Below the pieces are notes generated by a model that saw nothing but the letters and a program-made list of their open reading frames with translations, was not told where the DNA came from and did not search any database. Shown one piece after another: positions 13,896 through 43,301 of a DNA stretch of 64,000 nucleotides (the stretch's first letter is position 1; the number at the start of each line of letters is the position of its first letter). The position numbers were made by a program, and so were the translations under genes. The stretch covers positions 5,919,001-5,983,000 of the forward strand of contig NZ_CP019630.1 in the NCBI RefSeq assembly GCF_001999245.1, read 5' to 3'. The stretch comes from Roseibium algicola. Its GTDB lineage: Bacteria; Pseudomonadota; Alphaproteobacteria; Rhizobiales; Stappiaceae.

Positions 13896-15875
13896 TCAGG
13901 GCACCACTTTGACCGTGGTTGCCGTTGCCCGCAAGACCGGACCATCCTGCATCAGCTTTTCGAAATAGTCTTCCGGATCGTTTTCGCGGCGCTCAGAAAG
14001 CGTCTTGGTTATGTCCGGGCCCACCATGGCAATGATCAGGCCGGTTTCTTCAGTAGACGTTTTCAAGGTCAGCGGCACAACGAAACCGGCGCCCCGGTCG
14101 TCCGTCTGCAGATATGGGGACAGATTGACCGTCTCCCCCTTGCTGTTGACGAATATAAGCCCGAGCCCACCCGTTGATGGTTCATAACCGGAAATGCGTC
14201 CGGCCATGTTGCTACCGTTCGGCACGACCGTCCGCTGCATGTCGAGACGCAGTTCGGTCTTGGCGTTTCCCTGTGGTGTTCCTCTCAGAAAAGCTATAGC
14301 CGGACATTGCGCATCGCTCACCAGGTTGACCTGGATCTTCGCTTCAAACCCCTGTGACTGGGTGAAGTCGCTGTCGAAACTGATGAATGGCGGCGTCCTG
14401 GAAGCAAATCCCTCAATCTCTGCGGAACGGCTCGCGATCTCTATCGGCTGCAAGTACATGCAATCGCCCGCCTGGTAACTGCTCACGAAGTTCCGGATCC
14501 GGTCTTCAGGGGTCACGTTTTCAGGCGTCTCTTGCGGATCGGTTGCCACCGGTGGCCGGGTAACGGTTTCGGTCGGTTCCGGTTTCGTGTCGACGGTCTC
14601 CTCTGGAGGCGTGGTCGGAATTGTCGGCACGGTGTTGTCCGGCGTCGTCGGCGCCTGCGTTTCCGGCGTTTGTGTTGAAGGCGACTGAAGTGCAGTTGTT
14701 TGCGTTTCAGTTGGCTGCTGGGACACTGGTTGCTGCGTTGCCGGTTGCTGGGTCGTTGGCGTCTGCGTTTGTTGTGTCACATTCGTCTGCTGCGACGGTG
14801 CGTCCGGCGCATTCGGTCGTGGCGGTGCCACGAGCACAGGTTTCTGGTCCTGCTCGGGCACGGATTGACCGACCAGGAAATAGACACCCCCGGCACCGAC
14901 ACCGGCGAATCCGAGCAGCGACAAGGCGACCAGAATGCGCTTGCCCCAGTTTGCCTGAGGCGGCGGTTGATCCAGTGCGGATTGTTCCGGCGGTGGCGCA
15001 GAAGATGGCCGAATGATCGTGCGGTCCTGGTCCTGCCGCCCCATCGGAGCACCTAGCGTCCAGTCCGCAATTTCCTTCATGCTGGCCGGACGGTTTGCCG
15101 GGTCGGGCTGTAACATGGCCTCCAGCAACGGACGGAAACGATTGTCGATACCTTCCAAGGGAGGCGTCTGCCGTCGTTTGTCGACGATCTGCACCTGCGT
15201 GCCGCCCATGTCGATCTGTTTGCCGGTCAGGGCTTCCGCAATGACCAGGCCAAGCGAATAGATGTCGCTGCGCGCAGTCACCTTGGCATCGAAAATGCCG
15301 ACCTGTTCTGGCGAAACATAATTGACCTTGCCTGCAAAGCCGTCACCGATAATGGTCGGCCCGCCCGTGTTTGCCCGCGAAATACCGAAATCGATGATTT
15401 TAGCCTGCGCGACATCGCCGTTCTGGAGAATGACGTTGTCCGGCGAAAGATCCCGGTGGATCACTTCCCGGTCGTGAACGGCCTGCAGGGCTTCAGCCAG
15501 ACGTTTGATCAACCGTGCCACCGCCTCCGGCTCAAGCGGACCGGATTCAAGGCGCGTGCTCAATGACGGGCCACTGACGAACTCCATCGCCAGGTAATAA
15601 ATCCCGAGCGTAGGCTCCTTCGCGAACACGTAGTACTGGGTCAGTGCGTCGTGTTTGAGTTTGCGAAGGATCTTTGCTTCCCGCTTGAACAGATCCAGGA
15701 TCATCGGGTCGCGCGAGAAGGTCGCGAGAAGGACCTTTACGGCAACCGGATCCCCGCTTTCCACGTCCCTTGCCTTGTAAACCGTCCCGATACCGCCATC
15801 GGCAATATGTTCTTCAATCTCATAGAGATTGTTGAGCCGGGTTCCGGCAGGCAGCAGGTGGGCACCAACGTTCAT
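13896..15875 (-). CDS. ppkA: T6SS transmembrane Ser/Thr protein kinase PpkA-type
   Basis: A 659-residue Hanks-type kinase of the T6SS threonine phosphorylation pathway. The cytoplasmic kinase domain (about 18-275) has the glycine loop IADGGIGTVYKA, Lys47 (VAVK), the HRDLSPDN catalytic loop (Asp142, Asn147), DFG at 162-164, and an SPEQ P+1 region. A juxtamembrane DRTIIRPSS motif places Thr286 as a likely autophosphorylation or FHA-docking site. One membrane helix (about 313-336) is followed by a Pro/Thr/Gln-rich spacer and a periplasmic domain (about 458-659). That domain is shared with the TonB-like protein and contains two conserved Cys. The stop and start overlap the phosphatase gene by one base (TGATG). 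In known systems PpkA phosphorylates Fha or TssL to trigger assembly. Confidence 0.9.
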   Translation of the reverse strand: MNVGAHLLPAGTRLNNLYEIEEHIADGGIGTVYKARDVESGDPVAVKVLLATFSRDPMILDLFKREAKILRKLKHDALTQYYVFAKEPTLGIYYLAMEFVSGPSLSTRLESGPLEPEAVARLIKRLAEALQAVHDREVIHRDLSPDNVILQNGDVAQAKIIDFGISRANTGGPTIIGDGFAGKVNYVSPEQVGIFDAKVTARSDIYSLGLVIAEALTGKQIDMGGTQVQIVDKRRQTPPLEGIDNRFRPLLEAMLQPDPANRPASMKEIADWTLGAPMGRQDQDRTIIRPSSAPPPEQSALDQPPPQANWGKRILVALSLLGFAGVGAGGVYFLVGQSVPEQDQKPVLVAPPRPNAPDAPSQQTNVTQQTQTPTTQQPATQQPVSQQPTETQTTALQSPSTQTPETQAPTTPDNTVPTIPTTPPEETVDTKPEPTETVTRPPVATDPQETPENVTPEDRIRNFVSSYQAGDCMYLQPIEIASRSAEIEGFASRTPPFISFDSDFTQSQGFEAKIQVNLVSDAQCPAIAFLRGTPQGNAKTELRLDMQRTVVPNGSNMAGRISGYEPSTGGLGLIFVNSKGETVNLSPYLQTDDRGAGFVVPLTLKTSTEETGLIIAMVGPDITKTLSERRENDPEDYFEKLMQDGPVLRATATTVKVVP

Positions 15876-16639
15876 CAGTTGCGAACTCCTTCGCGCGCAG
15901 ACATTGCATCGATATCGACAATCACGACAGTCACGTTATCCGAGCCGCCCTCTTCGAGCGCTCCATTGATAAGACATTGTGCCGTCGGCTTCGGCGCGCC
16001 GTTCATCAGGAAAGTACCAATCACACTATCGTCCAGATGTCCGGTCAAGCCGTCCGAACACAAAAGAAACCGATCGCCCTGACGCAGATTTCCTGAAACC
16101 AGTTCTAGTTCAAGCTCGATCCCGGATCCGATCGCCCTGGTGATGACATGCCTGCGGGCGAACGTCCTTGCTTCTTCAGGCGTCAGCACGTTCTGGTCCA
16201 CCAGTTCCTGCGCCTCGGTATGATCTGTCGTCAATTGTTCGAGACGGCCATTGCGCAGACGGTAGACACGGCTGTCGCCTGCCCAAAGGCACGCAAAGTT
16301 TGATCCGGAAATCAGAAGCGCGGCGATCGTTGTGCCCATGGCGGCACCGTTCGCCTTGGCCGCGGCCTGTTCGATCCGGTCCTTTGCAGTAATCAACCTG
16401 CTTTCGAACTGCTCCAGAAGGTCTTCCGCGCTGCGCGGTTGAGCGATACTGGCAAGGGCCTCACGCACGAGACTGGATGCCATCGCACCGTCATGCATGC
16501 CTCCCGCTCCGTCCATCACTGCGAAAACGCCCTTGCTCTCGTCAACGTAGAACGTGTCCTCATTGTGCTGCCGAACCCGGCCAACATGGGTCAGTCCAAT
16601 CGCAAAGCCACGCATAGAGGCTTCCATTTGTTCGATCAT
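15875..16639 (-). CDS. pppA: T6SS PP2C-type protein phosphatase
   Basis: A 254-residue soluble phosphatase that should reverse the kinase's threonine phosphorylation. PPM-family metal-site motifs are all present: RQHNEDTFYVD, VMDGAGGMHDG, LWAGDSRVYRLRNG, LLCSDGLTGHL and GGSDNVTVVIV. The length is the minimal catalytic domain. Its start overlaps the tagF stop by 4 bases, and its end overlaps the kinase start by one base, so tagF, pppA and ppkA are translationally coupled. Confidence 0.93.
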   Translation of the reverse strand: MIEQMEASMRGFAIGLTHVGRVRQHNEDTFYVDESKGVFAVMDGAGGMHDGAMASSLVREALASIAQPRSAEDLLEQFESRLITAKDRIEQAAAKANGAAMGTTIAALLISGSNFACLWAGDSRVYRLRNGRLEQLTTDHTEAQELVDQNVLTPEEARTFARRHVITRAIGSGIELELELVSGNLRQGDRFLLCSDGLTGHLDDSVIGTFLMNGAPKPTAQCLINGALEEGGSDNVTVVIVDIDAMSAREGVRN

Positions 16640-17310
16640 GTTCGATGATCCTCCGGATGAAATCGCCCATGACTATTCCCTGCCACGTCCTGTCGAGCTT
16701 CCGAACCGGCGTAGGTTTCCGGGAGCAGCAGCCATTGAAAGGCGCTTGCGTCCGGCAGGCCTGCACACGAAAACTCAAAACCCACTTCTCCTGCACGGCA
16801 CCAGAATTCGGATGACAGAACATCCGTTCCTGGCATCGTCGGTAACTCGGCATCCCTGCCCTTCTTGCCGCTTGCCTCCACCGCAATTGGCGTTTCCAGA
16901 CTTGCGACAGCCTGTTGAAAGTCTTCCAGGCTGGCATCTTCCTGCAAGGTGTCACGCAAGATTATCTCGGCACGGTCATACCAGGTCTCCTCCGGTCGAC
17001 CATTCTGCGTTTCCAGTCGGATGTCGCAGGCAAGTGTCAATGGAAAGGTCCGGCCGACCTTGTCGACATTTGGCATGAAAGCACCGGCGACGGCCTGAAC
17101 AGGTTCGCCCCCCTCTGAAGCGTGCAATAGCCAGAATCGCCACACCGGCATTGTCATGAAGGCTTCCTCCCACCCCGCGCCCAGATCCAGACGGGATTGA
17201 GCCAGTCCGGTCATCAGGAAGGCCTCCCAGCTTTTCAGAAAGCCGGCTGGGCACTGCCCGATGACAAAATCCGCTCGTGCCGGCAGTTTGCCGAAATAAC
17301 CGGTTCCCAT
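16636..17310 (-). CDS. tagF: T6SS-associated protein TagF
   Basis: A 224-residue TagF/ImpM family protein. It starts with the family hallmark GTGYFGKLPARADFV, then RLDLGAGWEEAFMTMPVWRFWLLHA, and a later region matching the T6SS TagF core (AFMPNVDKVGRTFPLTLAC). TagF proteins are cytoplasmic and act as post-translational repressors of T6SS firing, in some species by binding Fha. In rhizobia TagF can be fused to PppA; here they are separate but overlapping genes, which supports a joint repressing role. It starts one base after tssM ends. Confidence 0.92.
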   Translation of the reverse strand: MGTGYFGKLPARADFVIGQCPAGFLKSWEAFLMTGLAQSRLDLGAGWEEAFMTMPVWRFWLLHASEGGEPVQAVAGAFMPNVDKVGRTFPLTLACDIRLETQNGRPEETWYDRAEIILRDTLQEDASLEDFQQAVASLETPIAVEASGKKGRDAELPTMPGTDVLSSEFWCRAGEVGFEFSCAGLPDASAFQWLLLPETYAGSEARQDVAGNSHGRFHPEDHRT

Positions 17311-17311
17311 T

Positions 17312-20965: not shown

Positions 20966-20998
20966 AGATACAGCCTTGTTCTGCGGTTGCCCCGGATA

Positions 20999-22573
20999 TC
21001 AGTTGTTTATCACCAGCCCTTTGGCCGGTGGCTTCAGGAAGACTTCCACACGTCTGTTGAGCGCCTTGCCTTCCCTGCTTGTATTGGGAGCGATCGGCTC
21101 GTCGGCGCCACGTCCTTCCACCTGCACCCGCCCCGGTGTCTGGAGGACTGATTCCATGACGGCAGCAACTGCCTTTGCCCTTTCAACGGACAGGTGCCAG
21201 TTGGTCGGGAACCGCGGATTATTGCGGATCGGGTCGCTGTCCGTATGGCCGACGACCAGAATTTCACCTTCCACCTGATCGAGGGTCTGGCTGACCTGCT
21301 CGACAAGAAGCTGGAATTCAGGGCGCAGCGTGGCAGCTGCGACGTCGAACTGCGCGCGCATGCGCAACATGATCGCTGGTCCCGCCTGCGAAATTTCCAG
21401 GCCATCGATACCTGCCAGCTGTGCGGAGACAGTATCGATTGCCGCATCTTCCGGCGGTGGTGGCGCGGGTGGCGGTTTGGGTTGGTAGCCCTCGCGCGCC
21501 AGTTCAATCGGGCCTAACGGGTAAAGCGCACTTGCGCGTCCAGCGACAACTTCGCTTCCGCTCGACAGAAGAAGCATCAAGGTGACGTAGCCCCCAAGAA
21601 GCAATGCGCCTGCAACGGCCGCGACCGACCAGATCGGTACCGAGAACCCTGCCCGCTTTTGCAGGAGTTCCAGTCCGCGCCAATGGGGAGAGAGATCGTC
21701 TCCAGGCCGCGGACGAACACGACGCAGAATTTCATGCAGGTCGCGTCGTTCGCGCTCCAGGCCCTGCTGGCCACCCTGGATCGCACGGTACTTGCCGTAA
21801 AAGCCGAGTGACAGACAGGAATGCATGACCTCCAGAACACCGTAGTTACGACCGGGATCCTGCTTTGCCTTTTCCAGTAGCTGATAGAACTCGACACCGC
21901 CGGTTGCCTGACCGAAGAACTGGGTCAGCATGGAGTATTGCGTCCATTGGTGACGTCCGGCAGACGGCAGGTTCTGAACGATATCGTCTGATGTCGCACA
22001 GAGCGCATAGGCGGCGGAACGGATCTGGTCGTCCGTGATTCCGGCGCTCCGCAATTCTTTCTCGAACGTCTTGATGGCGCTGTAGACATCGCGCATCAAC
22101 TGGTCGAACTGGGCGTCCGTCATTGTCAGGTGAAGCCGGCCCAGAAGCAGAAGCAACGGGGCAGCCGCACGGGAAATCGGATTTCGATTGGCAACGCGGA
22201 TCTGGTTGATGTCCGGCATATGCGCCAGTTTACCGGCACCTTGTGCAGGTGCGGCCGCCGGCTGTGGCGCAGCGCCTTGCGGTGCCTGGTAGCCGCCTGG
22301 CGGGGTTCTGAGATCCGGTGCCTGCTGCTGGCCATACTCATACCCGGCTGGCGTCGGAGCGTAAGGATCACGTCCTCCGCCGCCTCCCCCGCTTTGCCAC
22401 GGATCCGAGCCACCGGAAGGCGGATTGTGTGGCGGTGGCGGAGCTGCCTGTCCAGGAGGCGGCTGCCCGGGTTGTCCTGGCTGGCCTTCGCTCCATCGCC
22501 CGCCCGGATTGGGCATTACAATTGTCTTTCCCTTGCGTTTGGAAACGCCAAAGGGATCGTCATTGTCCGACAT
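20999..22573 (-). CDS. tssL: T6SS membrane protein TssL (IcmH/DotU) with OmpA-like peptidoglycan-binding domain
   Basis: A 524-residue evolved TssL. A Gly/Pro/Gln-rich cytoplasmic N-terminus carries GKTIVMPNPGGR, with Thr17 in a position similar to the PpkA-phosphorylated Thr of Agrobacterium TssL. The DotU domain (about 110-300) includes NPISRAAAPLLLLLGRL and ends in the single membrane helix (about 310-335). The periplasmic part carries an OmpA_C domain (about 400-515) with VVGHTDSDPI and NRRVEVFL. It therefore anchors the complex to peptidoglycan by itself. TssL and TssM stabilise each other; TssK ends at its start codon (TGATG). Confidence 0.96.
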   Translation of the reverse strand: MSDNDDPFGVSKRKGKTIVMPNPGGRWSEGQPGQPGQPPPGQAAPPPPHNPPSGGSDPWQSGGGGGGRDPYAPTPAGYEYGQQQAPDLRTPPGGYQAPQGAAPQPAAAPAQGAGKLAHMPDINQIRVANRNPISRAAAPLLLLLGRLHLTMTDAQFDQLMRDVYSAIKTFEKELRSAGITDDQIRSAAYALCATSDDIVQNLPSAGRHQWTQYSMLTQFFGQATGGVEFYQLLEKAKQDPGRNYGVLEVMHSCLSLGFYGKYRAIQGGQQGLERERRDLHEILRRVRPRPGDDLSPHWRGLELLQKRAGFSVPIWSVAAVAGALLLGGYVTLMLLLSSGSEVVAGRASALYPLGPIELAREGYQPKPPPAPPPPEDAAIDTVSAQLAGIDGLEISQAGPAIMLRMRAQFDVAAATLRPEFQLLVEQVSQTLDQVEGEILVVGHTDSDPIRNNPRFPTNWHLSVERAKAVAAVMESVLQTPGRVQVEGRGADEPIAPNTSREGKALNRRVEVFLKPPAKGLVINN

Positions 22574-23965: not shown

Positions 23966-25690
23966 TTAATTCATCAGTCCGGAGCTCTGCTCCGGATCGT
24001 CACTGCTCAATTCTTCATAACCTTCGGTAAAGTATTGCGTGAAAAGCCCGACCACGCCATCGTCGTACGAACCGGACAAGGAACTCCAGCGTTCCTGAAT
24101 CCGCTCCCATAGCTTGGCCTTCTGGTTACCGAATGTACTCTTGGCGATCTGGCCTTCTGCTTCGATCGCCTTGGGGGAAAGCTTTTCTTCAAATCTTCCT
24201 GCAGCCTTCTGCATGGCTGCATAAGTCCAGACATGATGTTTCTGGATGTCCTTGAAAGCAGCCTGCATGGCCTTTGAAATCGGCAAATACCCGTTTTCTT
24301 CCGCTCCTGGGGCCAGCATCGTCTGCAATGCCATTTGCGGTGTCGGCGAAAACTTCAGGGCATTGTTCCCGCTGCGCATGATCAGCGTGCGGTTGGCGTT
24401 CCGGGTCATGGCTTTCACCTGACTGCGTGCCTGCAAAAGACCCATCAAGTCGCCGGTGATGCCTTGCAATATGGCCCCGACTTCCCGGGCAAATTCTTCC
24501 GGATCGCGGCCGGCAAGCGTTGCAGCCGGGATACCGGCTCCTTCGGCGAAAGCCTTGATAAAATCAACAGTGGCCGCCGGAATATTAGCCGGCTCAACAT
24601 CAACCTTTGCAACCGCCGCTGTGTCTGCCTTCGCTGGTTCTTGCGGGGCAACAACAGGCATGGCCGCAGGTGCAGCTTGCTCCACAGGAGCCGGTTGTTT
24701 AGGCTGTGGTTCCTGGACCGTTGCCGGCTGTGTTTCCTCTGCCTCCGGCGCGCTCCAGACAGGCGCTTCGGGAAACGGCGACGCTGTGGGCTCTCCTGCA
24801 GGTGGCGGAGCAGATTCGGCCGCCGGTTGCTGGGTTGGTGCCTCTGGTTGAAGATCCGGCATCTGGAAAAGCGGCTCAGCACTTTCCTGCGCCGGGTTTT
24901 CAGACAGCGCCGGAAACGGAGATTGAGCTACAGGTTCCGGAAATCCAAAAAGCGGCTCTGCGGGTGCGGCTCCGGCAGATTGAAGATGCGGTTGCTGGGC
25001 AAGATGATCCAGCGGGTCCGCCTGGGCCGGTCGAGGCGCTTCCCGTTCGCCGATGTGCGCATTCGGATCGTACAGCGAAGGATCCGCCGTACCCCAGCCG
25101 TGTCCTTGCTGGCTCCAGACATCATCTGCCGGCGTGCCTATGCCTGGATTGGAGGAAGGCGGAGCGTGTCGCCCTTCCATGCCCGCTCCCGGTGTAGCCC
25201 AGGGCCCACCCTGATTTTCCATTGGATAGTGACCGGGTGCCGCGCCCGCCGGACCAGGCCCCGTAGGCCAGGAGGAGCCACCGGGTGTAGACGAGGTTTG
25301 CGGTGCGTCCCAGGGCTGAGGAGCAGCGGCGGCGACTGGTGCTGCGGACATGGCTGGCTGCCCGGATCCGGCTTCCAGCGATACGACGATGATGTAATCG
25401 CCAATCATCAGCCGATCGCCGGAGCGCAGCACATGTGCCTTGTCCATGCGGGTCTGGCTGCCATTAAGGAAAGTGCCGTTTGTCGAATAGTCGTAAAGAA
25501 CGAAATTCCCGCTTTCAAAGCGCACTTCGCAATGTTTACCGGAAATCATCCGCTGGGGATCGGGCAGACTCCAGTCCAGATGTTCGTGCCGACCAATGTC
25601 GAAGCCTCGGTCGGCACAGCTGTAGGACAGCTGACCGCCGGTCTCCAACCGGTCAACATTTTCAATCTGGAGCGTTATGCGCATTCCCAC
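23966..25690 (-). CDS. tagH: T6SS FHA-domain protein TagH (Fha)
   Basis: A 574-residue cytoplasmic regulator. The N-terminal FHA phosphothreonine-binding domain (about 20-105) has Gly33-Arg34, Ser50 with His53 (SGKHC), and TNGTFLN. A long Pro/Gln/Ala-rich linker follows (about 115-375), then the C-terminal T6SS FHA-associated domain (about 385-565, including NNALKFSPTPQ). In Pseudomonas and Agrobacterium the Fha protein is recruited by threonine phosphorylation and promotes assembly. The candidate ligands here are the T-[VI]-[IV] motifs in TssL, PpkA, TssG and the M23 peptidase. It lies between the DUF6931-type gene and tssK. Confidence 0.95.
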   Translation of the reverse strand: MGMRITLQIENVDRLETGGQLSYSCADRGFDIGRHEHLDWSLPDPQRMISGKHCEVRFESGNFVLYDYSTNGTFLNGSQTRMDKAHVLRSGDRLMIGDYIIVVSLEAGSGQPAMSAAPVAAAAPQPWDAPQTSSTPGGSSWPTGPGPAGAAPGHYPMENQGGPWATPGAGMEGRHAPPSSNPGIGTPADDVWSQQGHGWGTADPSLYDPNAHIGEREAPRPAQADPLDHLAQQPHLQSAGAAPAEPLFGFPEPVAQSPFPALSENPAQESAEPLFQMPDLQPEAPTQQPAAESAPPPAGEPTASPFPEAPVWSAPEAEETQPATVQEPQPKQPAPVEQAAPAAMPVVAPQEPAKADTAAVAKVDVEPANIPAATVDFIKAFAEGAGIPAATLAGRDPEEFAREVGAILQGITGDLMGLLQARSQVKAMTRNANRTLIMRSGNNALKFSPTPQMALQTMLAPGAEENGYLPISKAMQAAFKDIQKHHVWTYAAMQKAAGRFEEKLSPKAIEAEGQIAKSTFGNQKAKLWERIQERWSSLSGSYDDGVVGLFTQYFTEGYEELSSDDPEQSSGLMN

Positions 25691-25705: not shown

Positions 25706-26302
25706 TTAGGAAAAGGCTGACGAAGAGCTGCTGACGGTCACCGCGGGCATCGCCCCACCTCCGGCGAAGGACAGCCCGGCAGACAGGCAAGATTTCAGGG
25801 CCTCATCCCGTTTGGCAGGCTCAAGTGTTCCAAGCGCAATCAACACAGCTGTATTTACGGCCTTGGCCGTCAGGTCGTCCGGCATGTCCACCCGGTGCTC
25901 GGGGCTCGGCGAGAGGGATCCGCCAGACCAGCCTGCAGCAAGACCGATCCAGACGGACGCGCTATCCTTCTTGGCGGCCTCAGCCGCCGCGTGAACCGCA
26001 ACACGGGCATCTTCATCCCCCTCGCGGACCCAGGTCTCGCTGAGTTTAAGAACCTGCCGGTCATCCTCGTTCTTGGCCTGATCCAGACCGGCAACGCAGT
26101 TCATGCCCCACCAGACCGATTCCCGTTTCGGCAGGATATGAGCGAAATAGGCGATCGCCGACAGCGGTGCCTCGCTTTTCTGCAATTCCAGAGTATAGGC
26201 GTCCGGAGCGATATCCGTGGCCGGTTCGCTTACCGTTTCCGACAACTCCGGAAAAGTTTCAAATACCTGTCTAGCCTTTGTAAAGCGGATACGTGATCCC
26301 AT
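25706..26302 (-). CDS. T6SS-associated hypothetical protein (DUF6931-type)
   Basis: A 198-residue soluble protein rich in Ala, with the core SAIAYFAHILPKRESVWWGMNCV followed by a helical part with AAEAAKKDSASVWIGLAAGWSGGSLSP. This matches small proteins found next to tagH/vgrG in proteobacterial T6SS clusters that I associate with DUF6931; the family assignment is from memory. No signal or membrane helix is seen. It ends 16 bases before tagH and begins 51 bases after vgrG, so it is in the same operon. Role unknown; a chaperone or adaptor for spike loading is one possibility. Confidence 0.7.
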   Translation of the reverse strand: MGSRIRFTKARQVFETFPELSETVSEPATDIAPDAYTLELQKSEAPLSAIAYFAHILPKRESVWWGMNCVAGLDQAKNEDDRQVLKLSETWVREGDEDARVAVHAAAEAAKKDSASVWIGLAAGWSGGSLSPSPEHRVDMPDDLTAKAVNTAVLIALGTLEPAKRDEALKSCLSAGLSFAGGGAMPAVTVSSSSSAFS

Positions 26303-33031: not shown

Positions 33032-33042
33032 TTTCACAAATT

Positions 33043-33721: not shown

Positions 33722-33736
33722 GGCTTCGGCCTGCAG

Positions 33737-33770: not shown

Positions 33771-33865
33771 TTTGGACCGGCGATGCAGACTTTCAACTTT
33801 TGAAGCGGCACCGCCACGGTCATACTTAGGAATTTCCGGGGCAGCAGTCAGCGTGGGCTTGGCCG

Positions 33866-34417: not shown

Positions 34418-36411
34418 ACCGGGAATTTCTCGACCTCTATAATCAGGAACTCACCTACCTGCGAGAACAAGGGGCGTCATTCGCTGAGGCCTATCCTGCT
34501 GTAGCAGAACGCCTGGGTGGGCTTCTGGAAGACCGTTCCGACCCCATGCTGTCCGGATTGCTTGAAGGTACTGCCTTCCTGTCAGCTCGCGTGCAGCTGA
34601 AAATGAAGCATGAGTTCGCCGAATTCACTTCCAACCTGTTCGAACAACTATATCCAACCGCGCTGGCGCCCATTCCCTCTCTGGTACTTGCCCGCGTGAC
34701 GCCGAAATATGGCGACGCGAATTTGCGCAACGGCATAAAGGTCGATCGCCATGCTCCCATGGAGGCCGTCTTCCGTGAACGCCAGGGAGAGGTTCGCTGC
34801 AGGTTCACTCTCACCTCTCCTATTACGTTGACACCCCTGGAGCTGACAGCTGCAAAGTACCTGAGCTCAGCTGCGCAGGTCTCCGGTCTCGGTGCGGAGA
34901 TGGCTGAAGACAGACGCACGCGCGCAGGTCTGTCCATCACGTTCACACACCGCATGTCCGAGGATCCGGAAAACGAGGTTTCAGCCGAAGAAGCCTTGAA
35001 GAAACCAGAATACCAGGTGGCCGGCTGTCGGATCGATTCACTTCCCGTCCGATTGATCGGACCTCTGGATCTGGCTGCGAAGGTCTATGAACAGATCTTC
35101 GGACATACAATCGCGCTCTACATCCGTACCGAAGACGCCTTCGGTCAGGCCAGCCTGCAGCGCCTGCCCGTCGATGCCATAGAGCAGCTGGGTTTCGATG
35201 AAGAAGATTCCCTCTTGCACAACGACTTGCGCCTGTTCACCGGCTTTGATCACTTGCGCGACTATTTCAACTTTCCGCGCAGCTTCCTCGGGATCCGTCT
35301 GACGGGCTTGCGCCGTTACCTGGATAGGGTCAAGGCAAAAGCATTCGATCTGGTCTTCGTGTTCGATGAAGCAGAAAACCGGTTGCCTGCTCACGTTGAA
35401 CGCAAGATTTTCGCGCTTCACTCAGCGCCGGCCGTCAACTTGTTCGAAAGGCAGACTGACCGGGTGCCGATCAAGAAAGGGCAGCACGAGTTTGCTGTCA
35501 TCACGGATCGGACACGGCCACTGGATTATGAAGTGCATGCCGTCACTGAAGTTTCCGCCCACTTCTCAGGAGGCGAGAAACGACCGGTTGAACCGCTCTA
35601 CAGCGTTGCACCAGACACTGAAAAAGCCGGTCACGAGTGGTTTTATACCATTCGCCGTTTGCCGCGACGCCAGTCGTCTTCTGAAATCCGGCGCATGCAG
35701 CCGAGCCACTACATAGGCACAGAAACCTTCATCTCTATCTCAAGCGGAGCACAGGCTGCCGCCCTGCTGCAAACCGGCAAGAAACGTCTTTCGGAATTAT
35801 CACTGAAAGTATTGGCATCCAACCGGTCGCTGGCCGCAGACCTCCCCGTGGGAACCAACCCGGACAAGTCCGAGATTGGGGATTTCCGCATACTGGAGGA
35901 TATCGGCCTCAAGGTAGATTGTGTTGCCGGCCCGACATCGCCAAGGCCGCCGCTTCTTTCCTACAATGAAAGACTAGGCGAACAGGGTCACGCCGGCGCC
36001 ATTGCCTGGCGGCTCATTAACATACTGGCCTTGAACCATACCGGCCTTGTACACGATGCGGCAGGTCAGGACGGTCGGTCTTTCCGCGATGTGTTGAGCG
36101 TCTTCGCGCCACTTTCCGACAGTTCAGCAGACCGGCAGGCCCAGTCTGTTCGGTCGGTTTCGACAAGGCCAGTTGTACGCCGCCTGCAACAGAAGTCCGG
36201 CACAGGTGTCGCCAGAGGTCTCGAAATCACGATCACGCTCGATGACAAGGCTTTTGAAGGGGCGAGTGCCTTTCTGATGGGGGCTGTCCTCGACCGGTTT
36301 GTCGCCGAATACGCTTCCATCAATCACTTCACGCAGTGTGTGATCGCAACGACAGAGCGCGGCGTTATCATGAAGTGGCCTCCGCGGATCGGCGCGAAAG
36401 GAATTCTATGA
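34414..36411 (+). CDS. tssF: T6SS baseplate protein TssF
   Basis: A 665-residue TssF (ImpG/VasA) baseplate protein, somewhat longer than the usual 580-620. The start is classical (MNREFLDLYNQELTYLREQGASFAEAYP), followed by DPMLSGLLEGTAFLSARVQLK and FTSNLFEQLYP. A later FNFPRSFLGIRLTGL region and a C-terminal GASAFLMGAVLDRFVAEYASINHFTQ complete the family pattern. It is the homologue of phage T4 gp6 and binds TssG. Coupled to tssE and tssG by 4-base overlaps. Confidence 0.96.
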   Translation: MNREFLDLYNQELTYLREQGASFAEAYPAVAERLGGLLEDRSDPMLSGLLEGTAFLSARVQLKMKHEFAEFTSNLFEQLYPTALAPIPSLVLARVTPKYGDANLRNGIKVDRHAPMEAVFRERQGEVRCRFTLTSPITLTPLELTAAKYLSSAAQVSGLGAEMAEDRRTRAGLSITFTHRMSEDPENEVSAEEALKKPEYQVAGCRIDSLPVRLIGPLDLAAKVYEQIFGHTIALYIRTEDAFGQASLQRLPVDAIEQLGFDEEDSLLHNDLRLFTGFDHLRDYFNFPRSFLGIRLTGLRRYLDRVKAKAFDLVFVFDEAENRLPAHVERKIFALHSAPAVNLFERQTDRVPIKKGQHEFAVITDRTRPLDYEVHAVTEVSAHFSGGEKRPVEPLYSVAPDTEKAGHEWFYTIRRLPRRQSSSEIRRMQPSHYIGTETFISISSGAQAAALLQTGKKRLSELSLKVLASNRSLAADLPVGTNPDKSEIGDFRILEDIGLKVDCVAGPTSPRPPLLSYNERLGEQGHAGAIAWRLINILALNHTGLVHDAAGQDGRSFRDVLSVFAPLSDSSADRQAQSVRSVSTRPVVRRLQQKSGTGVARGLEITITLDDKAFEGASAFLMGAVLDRFVAEYASINHFTQCVIATTERGVIMKWPPRIGAKGIL

Positions 36412-37985
36412 GCGGTCCGGCAGACAAGGATCTGACGAAAACCCGTGTTGCACGGGACAAGACCGTTGTGCCTTCATCCTCCCGGAAGGCCCCGGCATGG
36501 CCGACCAAAGAGGAGACGGAGACTGCAATCGAGTCTGATGAGAAGGCCGACGCTGACGATATCTGGACCGTAAAACCGCAGGACAACAACACACCTGAGG
36601 ACGAGACAGAAGCGCTCGCGGTCAAGTCGCCCGCGATTGAATCTGCCGCGATCACATCGCCCGAACACGCCACTCCCTCGCCTGCCGGATCCCAATCAGA
36701 AACGCCTGCACAACAAATCGATCCTCCAGCGGAAACCTCTGTCGAGGGAACGGAAGAGGTGATTGAAGCGCAGACCGAAGAGACTGCGTCTGATCCAGCA
36801 GCTGAGGAAGCAGTTCCGGAAACCCCGCGTATCGAGGTGCCGGTCCAGCAGCAATACGCGTCGTTGCTTGCAGCCCTCGGAGACCGCATCGAGAAGCATC
36901 CAGGTGGACATGATCTGCTGGCGGTGCTGAGAATGCTCGAAGGCCAGACCGCTCCGGGAATTTCCGAAACCGGAATAAAGCCGAAGAACGCCGATGAGCC
37001 CGCTCCACCCAGGATCGGCAAAAGCCGGCGCATGATGGAAGACATCGTTCGCTTCGGTCAGGACCCGTCCAGCGAATTCGCTACATCGACAATTGAGCGT
37101 GCGACAAAAGACGGTGACGGCGGCCTGGTCTTGCTGGAACGCTTCCTTGGTTTGCTTGGGCCGCAAGGCGCTCTGCCTTCCGCCTATACCGACGAAGCGA
37201 TCATGCGCGGGCTCAGAGGCGATGACAGTTTTCCGAGATTCCTTGACCTGTTCAACAACCGCTTCGTGCAGTTGTTCTACCGCGCGTGGGCCGATGCCAG
37301 ACCGATCGTTCAACATGACCGGCCGGACGACGACCGGTTTCTCGCCTATCTCGGGTCGGCGATCGGCATCGGCACCCCGTTTTACCGGGACCTCGACAGG
37401 ATCGATGATCGGCTCAAGCTGCTCTATGCGGGCCTTATGGCCCCCAAGACAAAGAGCGCCGCTCGTTTGAAGGCCCTCATCACGGGCGTTTTCGATGTCC
37501 GGGTAGAGATTGATCAATGTGTCGGGACGTGGCTGCATCTGGACAAGGACGATCAGCTCAAGCTTGGTGGTTTCGGGCCAAGCGGAGCCGGGCAACTTGG
37601 CGCCGACACGATCGTTGGATCAAAGGTCTACAGTGTGAGTGACAAGATCCGGATCAGGATTTTCACGAGCAGTCTGGAGGAATATCGGCAGTTTCTCCCG
37701 CCAACCCGGGCAAGACCCAATCCCTGGACAGAGAAGCTTTTCGACCTCATCGATTTTTATCTGGGTCTGGAAATTGAATATGAAATTGAACTTGCGCTGC
37801 CGAAGAGATGCGCATCCGCTGTCCGGATGGATGCCAACAACTCCGCAACGCTTGGACATATCGGCTGGCTGAAGCCGGCCGCTTCCGGCCCCGACGTCGA
37901 TACTGACCTGGAGGCCGAAGAAGAAGAAATGCTTACCGACACCCGTTTCCGGCCTGTGCGTCGCCACACCACAGTCTACCAATAG
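36408..37985 (+). CDS. tssG: T6SS baseplate protein TssG with long acidic N-terminal extension
   Basis: A 525-residue TssG (ImpH/VasB). The ATG at 36408 overlaps the tssF stop as ATGA. The conserved TssG part begins only near residue 148 (YASLLAALGDRIEKHPGGHDLL) and runs to the end (GIGTPFYRDLDRIDDRLKLLYAGL, FDVRVEIDQCVGTW, LGGFGPSGAGQLGADTIVG). The first 148 residues are an unusual Glu/Ala/Pro-rich, probably disordered extension that starts with a basic DKTVVPSSSRKAP segment (Thr19), similar to Thr motifs in the kinase and the M23 peptidase. TssG normally has about 330-350 residues. Confidence 0.94.
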   Translation: MSGPADKDLTKTRVARDKTVVPSSSRKAPAWPTKEETETAIESDEKADADDIWTVKPQDNNTPEDETEALAVKSPAIESAAITSPEHATPSPAGSQSETPAQQIDPPAETSVEGTEEVIEAQTEETASDPAAEEAVPETPRIEVPVQQQYASLLAALGDRIEKHPGGHDLLAVLRMLEGQTAPGISETGIKPKNADEPAPPRIGKSRRMMEDIVRFGQDPSSEFATSTIERATKDGDGGLVLLERFLGLLGPQGALPSAYTDEAIMRGLRGDDSFPRFLDLFNNRFVQLFYRAWADARPIVQHDRPDDDRFLAYLGSAIGIGTPFYRDLDRIDDRLKLLYAGLMAPKTKSAARLKALITGVFDVRVEIDQCVGTWLHLDKDDQLKLGGFGPSGAGQLGADTIVGSKVYSVSDKIRIRIFTSSLEEYRQFLPPTRARPNPWTEKLFDLIDFYLGLEIEYEIELALPKRCASAVRMDANNSATLGHIGWLKPAASGPDVDTDLEAEEEEMLTDTRFRPVRRHTTVYQ

Positions 37986-38010
37986 GTCTCAAGTCTGAAG
38001 GACCGATATT

Positions 38011-40818
38011 ATGAATGACATTACGGTTGAAAAAGTTGTCAACAAGACCAACTCAACTGCCTACGACAGCCTGGACAAGGCCATGAGGCTTACGAAGGAT
38101 GCCGGCCACCGGCATCTCGAGCTGGTCCACTGGTTTTACTATCTGATCCGCAACGAAAATTCTGATGTATTTCATATTCTGCGGCATTTCGACGTCGATC
38201 TCAGCACCCTGGACAAGGACCTGCAGGCCGCGCTTGCAGAGTTCAAGATCAACCAGACCGAACTTCCGTCCATGTCCAAGCCTTTCCGTGAAGCGCTGGA
38301 AGGAGCCTGGTTCGTTGGCACGCTGACATACGGCGACTACAAGATCCGCACAGCCTATGTCCTTCTTTTCATGCTTGGCGAAGAGAGCACCCGGACGCAG
38401 CTTTTCCAGCTTTCGAAGGCTCTCAACAAGCTCAAGCACGATGAAATCGCGAACAACCTGGACGCCATCGCCGGATCATCCGGTGAAGTGCGAGCGAGAC
38501 CCATCGACGGTTCAAGTCCAGCCTCCGGTAGCGCAGCAGGTGAACCGGGCGCAGAGCCGCTCGCGGCAGGCGGCCCCGGGGAAGATGCACTCAGCCAGTT
38601 CACGGTAGATTTCACAGCTCGTGCGCGGGCAAAGGAATTCGATCCGATCGTCGGTCGGGACGAAGAAATCCGGCAAGTCATCGACGTTCTGATGCGCCGC
38701 CGCCAGAACAACCCGATCCTGACCGGCGAAGCCGGGGTCGGCAAAACGGCTATCGTCGAAGGCTTTGCGCAGAAAATCGTTGCCGGTGATGTTCCGCCCG
38801 CGCTTCTGGGCACGCGCCTTTGTGCGCTGGATCTCGGCTTGCTTCAGGCCGGCGCATCGATGAAAGGCGAATTCGAGAAACGTCTGCGCGCGGTCATTGA
38901 TGCCGTCCATGGTTCCATCGTGCCGACGATCCTGTTTATTGATGAAGCCCATACGTTGATCGGAGCCGGCGGCGCTGCCGGAACGGGCGATGCGGCTAAC
39001 CTTCTGAAGCCTGCCCTTGCCCGCGGCACACTCAGGACCGTCGCGGCTACGACGTGGTCGGAATACCGCCAGCATTTTGAAAAAGACCCGGCCCTGACAC
39101 GGCGCTTCCAGCCCGTGCAAGTTGACGAACCGGATGAGGAAAAGTGCTTTGCCATGGTGCGCGGCCTGCTTGGCCCGATGGAAGATCATCACCAGGTTCG
39201 CATCCTCGATAGCGCTGTGCGGTCGGCGGTATCTTTGTCACATCGCTACATTCCAGCGCGCCAGCTGCCGGACAAGGCGGTCAGCGTTCTCGACACCGCC
39301 TCGGCACGCGTCAACATCTCGCAAGCAGCACAGCCAGCCCGGTTGCTGGACCTGGTTGCCCGAAAAGGTTTTCTGGAGACAGAGAAAAAGGCCCTGACCA
39401 ACGATGCCGAACTGGGCATGGAGCATCAGGAACAGCTCGAGGCACTGTCCAAAGCGATTACAGAAACCGAAAGCGACATTGAGACTGTCCGCAATCAGTG
39501 GGAAAACGAGCGGAAACTGGTAGCCGGAATCCGGCGTTTGAATGCCGCTCTTGCAAAGCTTCGCGGTGTTGAACCTGCGCCTCATCCGGAAAGCGAGGCG
39601 ATCGAAGATCCGCAGCACGACAAGCCCGCTCTAGTTCCGATCGATGAGATCGAGCTTGAACTTGACGTGGACCTGACCAACGAAGACGCCATTCGCGAAG
39701 CGCTCCAGGCGATGCGCACGGAGCTTTCCGAGATCCCTGAAGACGATCGCATGGTCTATGCCTATGTCGACGATGAGGCTGTTGCCAGCATCATTTCCGA
39801 CTGGACCGGCATTCCGGTCGGCCGGATGGTGCAGGACGAAATGCAGACGATCCTGACGCTGACCGACAGCCTCAACAAGCGCGTGATCGGTCAGGCCCAT
39901 GGCCTGGCAATGATCTCGAAGCGCATCGAGACCAGCCGCGCCCAGTTGGGCAATCCGGACAAGCCCATCGGCGTGTTCATGCTGTGCGGCCCCTCCGGTG
40001 TCGGTAAAACCGAAACCGCTCTGGCCCTTGCCGAGACCCTTTATGGTGGTGAGGAAAGCCTGATCACCATCAATATGTCCGAATTCCAAGAAGCGCATTC
40101 CGTTTCCGGTCTCAAAGGCGCTCCTCCGGGATATGTAGGCTATGGCGAAGGCGGCCGGTTGACCGAAGCCGTGCGGCGCAAGCCTTACTCGGTCGTCCTT
40201 CTGGACGAAGTCGAAAAGGCTCATCCGGATGTTCACGAAATCTTCTTCCAGGTCTTCGACAAGGGTTGGATGGAAGACGGCATGGGTCGGAAGATCGACT
40301 TCCGCAACACGTTGATACTGCTGACCTCGAATGTCGGCACCGACATCATCATGAATGCAGCAAGTCACATGCTGGATGCGCCGGTTTCCAGTGATCCGGA
40401 TCTTGCGGCAACTGACCCGAACGCACCGGATCCGGAGAAGCTCGCGGAAACCTTGAGACCAGCATTGCTCGACGTGTTCCCGCCGGCCCTGCTCGGCCGT
40501 ATCGTGACCATCCCCTACTATCCGCTGTCGCCATCCATGCTCGGGTTCATCGTCCGGCTTCAGCTCAACCGTATTGTCAAACGGGTCAAGCAGAACCGGG
40601 ATGCCGTGCTGAGTTATGGCGACGACGTGGTGAGCCATATCGTTTCACTCTGCCGCGACCCGGACAGCGGTGGCCGCATGATCGACAACATCCTGACCAA
40701 CGACCTTCTGCCGAAGCTGTCGCGTGCGTTCCTCACGGCGCAAATGAACGGCGAAGAACTGAAGGGTGTGACCTTGAAAGCGACGGAAACCGGTATCGAA
40801 ATCGAGCCGGCCAGCTGA
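38011..40818 (+). CDS. clpV: T6SS sheath-disassembly ATPase ClpV (TssH)
   Basis: A 935-residue AAA+ unfoldase of the ClpB/ClpV class that recycles contracted sheaths. The N-domain (about 1-150) precedes AAA-1 with Walker A GEAGVGKTA near residue 237 and Walker B ILFIDEAHTLIGAGG. A coiled-coil middle region (about 450-560) follows. AAA-2 has Walker A GPSGVGKTET near residue 660, the ClpV-type pore segment GAPPGYVGYGEGG, and VVLLDEVEKAHP. The middle region contains an acidic insertion around 545-570. It is the last gene of the plus-strand T6SS arm and is closed by a bidirectional terminator. Confidence 0.97.
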   Translation: MNDITVEKVVNKTNSTAYDSLDKAMRLTKDAGHRHLELVHWFYYLIRNENSDVFHILRHFDVDLSTLDKDLQAALAEFKINQTELPSMSKPFREALEGAWFVGTLTYGDYKIRTAYVLLFMLGEESTRTQLFQLSKALNKLKHDEIANNLDAIAGSSGEVRARPIDGSSPASGSAAGEPGAEPLAAGGPGEDALSQFTVDFTARARAKEFDPIVGRDEEIRQVIDVLMRRRQNNPILTGEAGVGKTAIVEGFAQKIVAGDVPPALLGTRLCALDLGLLQAGASMKGEFEKRLRAVIDAVHGSIVPTILFIDEAHTLIGAGGAAGTGDAANLLKPALARGTLRTVAATTWSEYRQHFEKDPALTRRFQPVQVDEPDEEKCFAMVRGLLGPMEDHHQVRILDSAVRSAVSLSHRYIPARQLPDKAVSVLDTASARVNISQAAQPARLLDLVARKGFLETEKKALTNDAELGMEHQEQLEALSKAITETESDIETVRNQWENERKLVAGIRRLNAALAKLRGVEPAPHPESEAIEDPQHDKPALVPIDEIELELDVDLTNEDAIREALQAMRTELSEIPEDDRMVYAYVDDEAVASIISDWTGIPVGRMVQDEMQTILTLTDSLNKRVIGQAHGLAMISKRIETSRAQLGNPDKPIGVFMLCGPSGVGKTETALALAETLYGGEESLITINMSEFQEAHSVSGLKGAPPGYVGYGEGGRLTEAVRRKPYSVVLLDEVEKAHPDVHEIFFQVFDKGWMEDGMGRKIDFRNTLILLTSNVGTDIIMNAASHMLDAPVSSDPDLAATDPNAPDPEKLAETLRPALLDVFPPALLGRIVTIPYYPLSPSMLGFIVRLQLNRIVKRVKQNRDAVLSYGDDVVSHIVSLCRDPDSGGRMIDNILTNDLLPKLSRAFLTAQMNGEELKGVTLKATETGIEIEPAS

Positions 40819-40829
40819 CATCAACCAAC

Positions 40830-40869
40830 AAAAAAACGCCGGACAGGTTCTCCCACCTGTCCGGCGTTT
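40830..40869. terminator. bidirectional terminator between clpV and the PAAR gene
   Basis: A 13-bp perfect stem (ACGCCGGACAGGT/ACCTGTCCGGCGT, arms 40836-40848 and 40855-40867). On the minus strand it is followed by seven T, an excellent terminator for the PAAR-side transcripts. On the plus strand only three T follow, so termination of clpV may be weaker. Confidence 0.9.
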
Positions 40870-40911
40870 CGAGTCCTACCGGAAATCCGGCTGATTGTTG
40901 CAAGTCCTGGT

Positions 40912-41208
40912 TCAGCCCCCGATAAGAACGGTAAATTCCCCTGTCGTGATCGCGCCACCCTTGGCTGTCGGATCGCCAATGCGGGCCGCGGGCAAACTTC
41001 CGATAAGAACAGTCAGCGACCCCATGATAATGGGGTCGACATTTGCCGGCGGAGGCCCGACACACACGCAAAGGTCCGTCATTCTGGCTGCAGGACGCTT
41101 GCCGATCAGGACGTTGATCTTGCATGGCGGCGCAATTGGCAACCCCGGTGGAATGGGTGTCATCGGGCACATATGAAAATCGCCCAGGCGGGCAGCTGGT
41201 CTGGTCAT
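40912..41208 (-). CDS. T6SS PAAR-domain spike tip protein
   Basis: A 98-residue PAAR protein that should sharpen the VgrG tip and bind zinc through His/Cys residues. The motif RPAARLGD opens the protein, with near-repeats RPAARMTD and LPAARIGD and an HMCP segment supplying metal ligands. There is no N- or C-terminal effector extension. It sits at the opposite end of the locus from vgrG, downstream of the M23 peptidase gene on the same strand (107 bases apart), and is closed by a strong terminator. Confidence 0.93.
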   Translation of the reverse strand: MTRPAARLGDFHMCPMTPIPPGLPIAPPCKINVLIGKRPAARMTDLCVCVGPPPANVDPIIMGSLTVLIGSLPAARIGDPTAKGGAITTGEFTVLIGG

Positions 41209-41315
41209 GGCAGCCTCGTGCGTTGTTACACTCTTGCCAGAATGAACGTTCCTGCGACAAATACTGGGACCTGGATCACAGTCTGGCGTATTTCAGCGCT
41301 TCCGCAAGTCCTGTT

Positions 41316-43301
41316 TCACTGCACGCTCAAAATGTCGGCAATCACCGTCCGGTATTCCTGCAGATCCTTGCCCCCGACAGACTGCGGTGCTTCCGCTCCC
41401 GTCTCCATTTCAAAGGCCAGCGGGTCTGTCGGCTCTCCCCTGTGCCTGATTTCGAAATGAAGGTGCGGTCCGGTGGAAAGCCCCGTAGTTCCGACGTAAC
41501 CAATCAGATCACCCGCCTGAACCACAGACCCTAGCTGGATGCCATCGGCGTATTCATGCATATGCGCGTAGCGGCTGGTAATTCCGTCCTTGTGGGTGAG
41601 TTCAATGAAATTGCCATACCCGCCTCGAACATCGCGATAGGTGACCTTTCCGGAAAAGGCCGCGTGGATCGCGGTTCCAGTGGGGGCCGCCCAATCGACA
41701 CCGGCATGCAGGCGTTCCGTTTTCTTGATCGGATGAAATCTCATGCCGAACTTCGATGTCAGAACACCTTTGACCGGGACAAGCATGGCGCCGGACAAGC
41801 TGACCTTGCCGCCTTCGTTCACACAGGCAAAACCGCGATTCCCCGGCGCTTTGAGCACGTAGCAGCGAACGGACCAGTCGTCCCCGCGCCGAACACCGGC
41901 AAAGAGCACCCTGCCACCGCCACGCTTCTCGTCTCGAGCACTGTCCGTGAATACCAGAGTAACTCTCTCATCTGGTTTGATTGACCGCTTCAGGTCGGTC
42001 ATGGGCGCCAAATATGCGATTGCCTCGCCCACGATAGAAGCGGGCACGGCATTGCGGACTGCAGTGGCATAAACACCGTCGATCAAGCGATGCGAGTTGG
42101 CAGGTTGAGTTGCCTCCTCACCCGCGATCTTCTGTTCCACGATCGTCTTGCCAAACCAGGGATCGGCGCCGGCTACGTACCCGTCTCCGTCTCTCCCAAC
42201 CGAATAGGCGGCTGTACCGATATACCCTTCACGGCCGTAGATCGAAATCTGGACAGGCCGATAATAATCGCCAATCCGGCCTACCTTGTTCGGCATGCGA
42301 ACACCACGCACCGCGATCTTGTCGCCTGCGATCAAATCGCTTTTGTCAAAGTTGTCCTTGACGAATTCCACCAGCGAATCCAGGACTTCCTCGTCGAAGC
42401 CTTTGCCTTTCAGGAAATCCTTGAGCGGAGCCGCTTTTGCTACCTCCTCGCGTACTTCGACCCGGCTGGGCCCCTGACCGATGGGACGCTCGGTGAGATA
42501 GAGGTTCAACGTGTCCGTTGACGGTTTCAGAAACACCGGCAAATCGGGAGAACCATCGTCCCCGGGCCGCGCATCTTCTTCAACGACTATGCCCTCGGCC
42601 TCATCCCCGCCCCCGAAATTGCCGAACTGAAAGTCCGCCTCACTACCTGGTGCGCGTATAACAAGGTTGCCGTCATCGTCCAGCATCTGGCTGTCCAGCA
42701 CGTAAGCGGCAACAGACGGTACCGACGCAGCACCGTCCCCGATCGCAGCGGCTGGCACTGGACGCTCCGACAAGTCTATCCGCCGATTGGCGGCACCATC
42801 CTTCAAAAGGACCGGGTCGCCCGCCAACGGAATGACAGCAGAGAGGGCCATGTCGAAAAAAGGATCGGCCGGAACATCGAGATCCTCTTCGTTGGTCAAC
42901 GCAGTGTCATCAACATCCTGTTCCAGGGCTTGGTCATTGGCGGCGGTTTCGTCGGGATCTTGCTGCGGAGCATTTTCCGGAGAGGCGCTGTCCGACACCG
43001 CTTCGGCGATATCCTGTAAGCCGATTTCCTCGGGAGGTGACAAGGATATCGCGCCGGAGGAGATCAGATGGGCAATGCCGCCAGCAGCACCACCCAGCAC
43101 CAGGAACCCGATGGCCATTGCAGCATAAAGCACAATGGGTGACCGTTTCGGAGCTGCCACCTTGGCCGGCGCAGCTCCTGGGTTTGGCGGTGATGTAGCG
43201 GTAGGGCCAGCTTGTGGCGCCTTTTGCGACGGACGGATCACGGTCCTGTCAAACTCTGGGCGATGAGCACCCGGATTTTGGTTGTCAGGCCATTGGACCA
43301 T
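41316..43301 (-). CDS. membrane-anchored M23 family peptidoglycan endopeptidase
   Basis: A 661-residue protein. The short cytoplasmic N-terminus has DRTVIRPSQKAP (Thr20), almost the same as the kinase's juxtamembrane DRTIIRPSS. One membrane helix (about 57-80) is followed by an acidic Asp/Glu-rich spacer, then NlpD/MepM-like domains. The C-terminal M23 domain has both zinc motifs, HAGVDW near residue 533 and HLHFEIRH near 613, plus the SRYAHM active-site block. M23 enzymes cut peptide crosslinks in peptidoglycan, mostly DD- or glycyl bonds. Its position between the PAAR gene and the CHASE2 cyclase, with the shared motif, suggests it opens the wall for the T6SS, as TagX (a different family) does in Acinetobacter. 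Confidence 0.85.
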   Translation of the reverse strand: MVQWPDNQNPGAHRPEFDRTVIRPSQKAPQAGPTATSPPNPGAAPAKVAAPKRSPIVLYAAMAIGFLVLGGAAGGIAHLISSGAISLSPPEEIGLQDIAEAVSDSASPENAPQQDPDETAANDQALEQDVDDTALTNEEDLDVPADPFFDMALSAVIPLAGDPVLLKDGAANRRIDLSERPVPAAAIGDGAASVPSVAAYVLDSQMLDDDGNLVIRAPGSEADFQFGNFGGGDEAEGIVVEEDARPGDDGSPDLPVFLKPSTDTLNLYLTERPIGQGPSRVEVREEVAKAAPLKDFLKGKGFDEEVLDSLVEFVKDNFDKSDLIAGDKIAVRGVRMPNKVGRIGDYYRPVQISIYGREGYIGTAAYSVGRDGDGYVAGADPWFGKTIVEQKIAGEEATQPANSHRLIDGVYATAVRNAVPASIVGEAIAYLAPMTDLKRSIKPDERVTLVFTDSARDEKRGGGRVLFAGVRRGDDWSVRCYVLKAPGNRGFACVNEGGKVSLSGAMLVPVKGVLTSKFGMRFHPIKKTERLHAGVDWAAPTGTAIHAAFSGKVTYRDVRGGYGNFIELTHKDGITSRYAHMHEYADGIQLGSVVQAGDLIGYVGTTGLSTGPHLHFEIRHRGEPTDPLAFEMETGAEAPQSVGGKDLQEYRTVIADILSVQ

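Follow-up and report, generated by a model that had tools for sequence, protein, structure and literature searches.

A T6SS locus with a complete threonine-phosphorylation pathway

We analysed a 64,000-nucleotide stretch of the Roseibium algicola genome (the window; positions 5,919,001 to 5,983,000 of contig NZ_CP019630.1) and, within it, a short threonine motif that recurs in four proteins of a type VI secretion system (T6SS) locus. Positions 13896-43301 of the window, with genes assigned by Pfam, hold the T6SS cluster together with a complete threonine-phosphorylation pathway. The minus strand carries ppkA, pppA, tagF, tssM, tssL, tssK, tagH, a DUF6931 gene and vgrG, and the plus strand carries tssA, tssB, tssC, hcp, tssE, tssF, tssG and clpV. 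Past clpV lies an M23 peptidase gene on the minus strand, followed, beyond the region of interest, by a CHASE2 cyclase gene on the same strand.

The pathway genes are all on the minus strand. The ppkA gene (13896-15875) encodes a membrane-bound Ser/Thr kinase (Pkinase PF00069, 5e-41). It is adjoined by pppA (15875-16639), which encodes a PP2C phosphatase (PP2C_2 PF13672, 1.1e-14), and tagF follows at 16636-17310 (TagF_N, 9.4e-34). The tagH/fha gene (23966-25690; T6SS_FHA_C, 3.4e-46) encodes a protein with an FHA domain at residues 31-97 (PF00498, 7.2e-16). For the alignments, 28 loci of the same genus were retrieved around the position of their TssL match, and their orthologues were combined with those of the window. 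In these alignments the catalytic Lys, HRD and DFG of PpkA are intact in 29/29 rows, as are the phosphothreonine-binding residues R34, S50, H53 and N71 of TagH.

Three further genes concern us here. The tssL gene (20999-22573, minus strand) encodes a membrane-complex protein with DotU and OmpA domains (PF09850, PF00691). The tssG gene (36408-37985, plus strand), which starts at an ATG (36408) overlapping the stop codon of tssF, encodes a baseplate protein in which a long N-terminal extension precedes the domain starting at residue 196 (PF06996). The M23 (LytM) peptidase gene (41316-43301, minus strand; Peptidase_M23, 3.4e-31) encodes a short N-terminal tail and a hydrophobic stretch that appears by eye to be a membrane helix. 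Its zinc-ligand motifs HAGVD and HLHFE (HxxxD and HxH) are kept in 29/29 rows, and the enzyme is probably active outside the membrane. The N-terminal tails are probably disordered, judging by their composition and low conservation.

A conserved threonine motif in four proteins

A first-pass annotation of this DNA named similar stretches in TssL, PpkA, the M23 peptidase and TssG, and all four are found in the sequence. In the N-terminal tail of TssL the motif is GKTIV (GKTIVMPN; 22517-22531, minus strand), with Thr17 encoded at 22525-22523. The juxtamembrane part of PpkA has DRTII (DRTIIRPSS; 15012-15026, minus strand), with Thr286 encoded at 15020-15018. The TssG tail has DKTVV (DKTVVPSSS; 36456-36470, plus strand), with Thr19 encoded at 36462-36464, and the M23 tail has DRTVI (DRTVIRPSQ; 43236-43250, minus strand), with Thr20 encoded at 43244-43242.

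The motif as originally worded, which placed a proline within two residues, does not hold. The proline is variable in PpkA, TssG and the M23 peptidase and dispensable everywhere but in TssL; the genus alignments contain proline-free variants such as TVVQFA in TssG, VIRT, VIRS and VIQF in PpkA, and VIRR, VIRA and VIRS in the M23 peptidase. Proline is thus ruled out as a component, and the corrected motif is [D/E/G]-[R/K/A]-T-[V/I]-[V/I/L]. Ahead of the threonine stands Asp or Glu (Gly in TssL, Asn in one TssG) and then Arg, Lys or Ala. Behind it come Val or Ile, then Val, Ile or Leu, and then mostly Arg in TssL, PpkA and the M23 peptidase, and Gln or Arg in TssG. The TssL site has G-K before the threonine, unlike the D-R/K of the other sites; TssL reads GRTVI in genome G096 and EKTVI in G030.

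Conservation of the threonine in orthologues, which the first-pass annotation had named as a check, is complete across the genus loci. Thr is kept in 29/29 TssL, 29/29 PpkA and 29/29 M23 rows; three M23 rows that were cut or absent in the first alignment (G003, G023, G040) were recovered separately. TssG has Thr19 in 27/27 readable tails, window included. The contig of G023 ends ahead of tssG, and in G042 a tail with RDKTVLRF sits in another frame than the gene body (28/28 if it is counted). No readable row of any of the four proteins has Ser, Val or Ala in place of the motif threonine. The threonine codon comes in three kinds in TssL (28 rows) and in PpkA (28), and in four kinds in the M23 peptidase (25) and in TssG (23). 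The codons are free to vary, and selection therefore acts on the protein. Every T-[VI]-[VIL] stretch in 21 query proteins from the locus was scanned; the mean identity of the flanks (20 residues on either side, core excluded) was 0.32 at TssG Thr19, a value somewhat depressed by three rows trimmed there, 0.47 at M23 Thr20, 0.72 at PpkA Thr286 and 0.82 at TssL Thr17. Island-like conservation is strong for TssG and the M23 peptidase and weaker for PpkA and TssL. We conclude that these four proteins of the locus contain a genuine linear motif under selection.

The motif in TssL and PpkA of other T6SS loci

TssL was sought by profile in 60 stretches from class- and phylum-wide draws and 23 from relatives, some of these being the second T6SS of the same genus, and was found in 82 of the 83. 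The core T-[VI]-[VIL] was looked for in the 130 residues ahead of the DotU domain. With PpkA/PppA sought in the fetched stretch (20 kb as a rule), the core was present in 25/53 TssL with these genes versus 7/29 without (p=0.058), for which shuffled tails gave 2.0 and 0.8; leaving out near-duplicates, the counts were 22/47 versus 4/25 (p=0.011). In the genomes of 12 of 28 negative loci a kinase lies about 14-32 kb from TssL; six of these 12 have the motif and the other six lack it. Because six of the seven exceptions to the first count had their kinase about 20-29 kb away, the count was repeated at 35 kb. In the seventh (G582) no Met precedes the motif, and the start of the protein is uncertain. 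The wider radius also made kinase-positive six loci that lack the strict motif (G116, G641, G653, G763, G767 and G775). G096, whose contigs are fragmented, was left out of the recount, and ten near-identical rows were left out of the deduplicated counts.

Of the 81 TssL in the recount, 65 have a kinase or phosphatase gene within 35 kb and 16 do not; the core was present in 31/65 of the former versus 1/16 of the latter (p=0.003, kinship ignored), or 25/56 versus 1/15 without near-duplicates (p=0.007). The stricter form [DE].?[RKAPGSEQ]T[VI][VIL] gave 21/65 versus 0/16 (p=0.008), and the serine control S-[VI]-[VIL] gave 5/65 versus 0/16 (p=0.58). In 34 of the 65 positive loci TssL lacks the strict core. 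Several of these have relaxed forms (NDRTQFMPRPGG, NRTFVMPSPGG, DERTMIQPMPGG and GDRTVMIPTPG); others, some with very short tails, have no form of the motif. In seven loci that are the second T6SS of other genus members (L104, L105, L107, L108, L109, L111 and L112), TssL tails next to a kinase gene have two [DE]-x-P-T-V motifs, one like LDQPTVAQ or LDHPTVAR and the other DEPTVAF, apparently a duplicated Agrobacterium-like site.

The juxtamembrane motif of PpkA occurs in few other PpkA proteins (G548, G720, G836b and G630, of 45 loci). PpkA also has GPTIIG in its activation loop (Thr174; 15345-15362, minus strand), with GPTII in 29/29 rows; its resemblance to the motif sites is suggestive only. 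A strict match between the activation loop and the TssL motif across loci, similar in some and absent in others, is not claimed.

The M23 peptidase and TssG sites

Of 45 genus genomes, 29 have the M23 orthologue (E <= 1e-258), and the same 29 have the TssL of the locus (E <= 1e-265). The gene is also present in Roseibium aggregatum IAM 12614 (L191). The 16 genomes without the orthologue contain no M23 protein other than paralogues at about 30-37% identity, and the tail motif is absent from 12/12 readable paralogues (15 fetched, three masked at the N-terminus). Together with the TssL recount, whose radius was set post hoc, this speaks largely in favour of the expectation of the first-pass annotation that the threonine would be conserved only alongside ppkA and tagH. 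Among 90 database relatives of the M23 peptidase (E <= 1e-60, 8000 candidates scored), [DE][RK]T[VI][VI] is present within the first 60 residues in 64. The remaining 26 (among P0013-P0087) are annotated from starts downstream of the motif, which is therefore missing from many public protein records. The two least identical relatives (54% and 59%) have DDRTIIRP and DNDRTVIV in tails that are otherwise different. An M23 relative of 33-39% identity in locus L119 (G096, same order, outside the genus) has a short N-terminal tail without the motif, although TssL of that genome has GRTVIVPNPGG. The link between this type of M23 peptidase and the T6SS may therefore predate the motif.

A database search found 1075 TssG proteins, of which the best 120 were listed. 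In 67 of the best 74, [DEN][RKAQ]T[VI][VIL] is present in the first 70 residues. The other seven comprise three with DKTLV, DKTML or DKTMV, three fragments or late starts, and one without the motif. The next 46 of the 120 best-listed relatives have it in 0/46 cases, and TssG from other loci in 0/33.

Look-alike sites and neighbouring genes

The literal pattern of the first-pass annotation also matches PpkA Thr549 (QRTVVP; 14229-14231, minus strand; 27/29 rows) and nearly matches Thr448 of a TonB-like neighbour (12094-12096, minus strand; 17/28 rows). Both were rejected as extra sites; they sit in a domain common to the two proteins, which in PpkA is past the membrane helix recognised by eye. 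Homology (30% identity, E 9e-19) links the C-terminal domain of PpkA to the C-terminal part of the TonB-like protein, for which the Pfam search returned no family, and the common domain is perhaps a sensor domain. RPTVVLP in TssA (11/28 rows) and two T-[VI]-[VIL] stretches in TssM (6/29 and 8/29) were ruled out as not conserved. Conserved T-[VI]-[VIL] stretches in PppA, TssK, VgrG, TssC, ClpV and TssG (T401) were also set aside; they probably lie inside folded domains, mostly with conserved flanks (only 0.56 in PppA).

Searched for at the DNA level, D[RK]T[VI][VI]xP shows no excess in the genome (6 matches versus 7 for the reversed-pattern control), and the literal pattern is ruled out as a genome-wide detector. 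Broader D[RK]T[VI][VI] patterns, which leave out the G-K-T form of TssL, gave 33 versus 14, 7 versus 2, 13 versus 5 and 8 versus 4, a roughly twofold excess over the reversed pattern that could reflect codon usage. The sites read from these four sets were 30/33, 7/7, 0/13 and 8/8; 38 of the 45 read encode the pentapeptide in some frame, and one member of the 13-site set is the M23 site by position. No further tail site was found among the 45, those outside the locus looking like folded enzymes or non-coding frames (judged by eye, without annotation).

Genes for an ExbB-like protein (11041-11712, plus strand), the TonB-like protein (11704-13437, minus strand) and an ExbD-like protein (13434-13856, minus strand) adjoin ppkA. 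Relatives of the ExbD-like and TonB-like proteins are present in 27 of the 28 other genus loci, the contig of G023 ending before them. The DUF6931 gene (25706-26302, minus strand), between vgrG and tagH, is likewise present in 27/28. The CHASE2-adenylate/guanylate cyclase gene (43414-45351, minus strand) lies directly upstream of the M23 gene and has a match in 24/28, several fetched stretches ending there. Genes for three caspase-domain (Peptidase_C14) proteins lie to either side of the T6SS cluster (7776-9344, plus strand; 46190-47815 and 48124-50841, minus strand), two of the proteins having peptidoglycan-binding domains.

Interpretation

We propose that PpkA phosphorylates the motif threonine, that the FHA domain of TagH recognises it once phosphorylated, and that the switch known at TssL probably extends to TssG and the M23 endopeptidase; we give this reading a probability of roughly two in three. 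In Agrobacterium tumefaciens, PpkA-dependent phosphorylation of TssL Thr14 creates a binding site for the Fha FHA domain, in the peptide DLPTVVEI, and the ligand of an FHA domain must be Thr (PMC3953482). TssL Thr17 fits the Thr14 site and would be the expected member of the set; PpkA Thr286 is a plausible one, and the TssG and M23 threonines are new candidates. The data thus suggest that the sites belong to the T6SS threonine-phosphorylation pathway, in a variant whose novelty would lie in TssG and the M23 peptidase.

Several observations support this reading. The threonine stays the same, with no change to Ser, in 29 rows each of TssL, PpkA and the M23 peptidase and in the 27 TssG tails that could be read, as an FHA ligand requires, while the tails around it vary and its codons differ. 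The mapped phospho-Thr14 peptide of A. tumefaciens TssL, PpkA-dependent and bound by Fha, has the same T-V-V core (PMC3953482). The M23 orthologue is confined to the 29 genus genomes with this T6SS, its readable paralogues lack the motif, and in other TssL the core, unlike the serine control, goes with a nearby kinase or phosphatase gene. The locus contains the complete pathway, with active-site and phosphothreonine-binding residues intact. The interpretation in the first-pass annotation, a common PpkA/TagH docking site, is partly supported: threonine conservation, co-occurrence of the M23 peptidase with the locus, association of the TssL core with the kinase, and intact PpkA and TagH residues speak for it, and its proline does not. 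The term 'docking site' merges a kinase substrate and an FHA ligand, which sequence cannot separate.

Other observations weigh against the proposal. The residue at +3 is often important to FHA domains, and in TssG it varies. Outside the Roseibium lineage neither the TssG site nor the M23 site was found, and one TssG relative of that lineage (P0164) lacks the motif in its tail. In TssL, the association with the kinase was weaker in the first count; the 35-kb radius of the recount was set after the exceptions had been seen, and the statistics ignore phylogeny. The 34 of 65 positive loci without the strict core include some whose TssL has no Thr motif of any kind. In Serratia marcescens, Thr438 of Fha is described as the sole PpkA target (PMC6082577).

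Alternatively, the stretches could be short linear motifs that stay unphosphorylated and serve as docking sites for a common partner, for instance a groove of PpkA or the C-terminal domain of TagH, the threonine being kept for packing. Sequence conservation by itself does not distinguish docking motifs from phosphosites, and the hydrophobic residues after the threonine are as constrained as the threonine itself. However, Ser, Val and Ala never replace it in the readable genus rows, the locus encodes a kinase, a phosphatase and an FHA protein, and in A. tumefaciens the threonine of the same core has been mapped as phosphorylated (PMC3953482). We consider this alternative unlikely. Somewhat less likely still is a division of roles, in which the sites of TssL, and perhaps that of PpkA, genuinely belong to the pathway and the motif in TssG and the M23 peptidase serves another role (local localisation, for example) or marks PpkA substrates that TagH does not read. 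The restriction of these two motifs to the Roseibium lineage, with none in the TssG of other loci or in the next-best listed relatives, would fit such a division. On the other hand, they are fixed in otherwise variable tails, have the same core and acidic-basic lead as the PpkA site, and the M23 peptidase is tied to the T6SS of the locus in 29/29 genomes. That a loose pattern was picked by chance after reading several long low-complexity proteins is very improbable: D[RK]T[VI][VI]xP is no commoner in the genome than its reversed control and two matches within the locus are decoys, but conservation over 28-29 loci with free codon use, and in M23 relatives at 54% and 59% identity, already contradicts it.

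If the four threonines are phosphosites read by TagH, PpkA would phosphorylate them, its own Thr286 included, and PppA would remove the phosphate. Binding of the phosphothreonines by the FHA domain would gather the membrane complex (TssL), the baseplate (TssG) and the wall endopeptidase (M23) around the kinase. In the least certain step, tail binding would place or activate the M23 enzyme and the wall would be opened where the apparatus is built; an effect of a cytoplasmic phosphate on this enzyme is likelier to be one of placement than of allostery. The full scheme, in which a single PpkA/TagH pair marks the TssL complex, the baseplate and a dedicated M23 endopeptidase and phosphorylation not only assembles the T6SS but also permits the wall to be opened locally, is more tentative, and we regard it as possible rather than probable.

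It is only partly understood how T6SS assembly is triggered by PpkA and Fha and how the apparatus passes through the cell's own wall. Should a single motif indeed act on the membrane complex, the baseplate and a wall hydrolase, the question would reduce to four named threonines in a culturable marine bacterium. The phospho-switch would then be a distributed one, and a T6SS-linked wall hydrolase would be under kinase control via its cytoplasmic tail. The core motif may also help to find PpkA targets elsewhere.

Comparison with known systems

The M23 structures ShyA (6ue4, 6u2a), 3slu and 6muk have the same LytM domain with HxxxD and HxH motifs. Their similarity to the Roseibium enzyme is confined to the C-terminal half (about residues 391-640 for ShyA and 441-634 for 3slu), and the T6SS linkage and tail motif are features of the Roseibium family, not of ShyA, 3slu or 6muk. 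TagX of Acinetobacter is presumably of another enzyme class than the M23 peptidase, and we know of no phospho-motif in it. The two are alike in that TagX is a wall (peptidoglycan) hydrolase encoded with a T6SS, and it is reported to be needed for T6SS biogenesis (PMC5061870).

In S. marcescens and Acidovorax citrulli, as proposed here, a kinase, a phosphatase and an FHA protein control T6SS assembly (PMC6082577, PMC12607579). The phosphorylated protein in both is Fha itself, a difference from the Roseibium proposal, and PpkA targets therefore differ between species. No PpkA site on TssG or on an M23 enzyme was found among the titles and abstract openings listed in searches of open-licence full text.

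The closest parallel is the A. tumefaciens switch, whose locus also has PpkA, a PppA-type phosphatase, TagF and an FHA protein, and whose site is likewise an N-terminal cytoplasmic TssL threonine with a T-V-V core (PMC3953482). The site there, DLPTVVEI, lacks the basic residue and the proline, and the available text of that paper describes no site on the juxtamembrane part of PpkA, on TssG or on a wall hydrolase. Thr14 is reported there to be conserved in Agrobacterium and Rhizobium and not in distant TssL; our counts suggest that a related core is wider among TssL than that text states. The A. tumefaciens site thus looks like one member of a wider T-hydrophobic-hydrophobic class.

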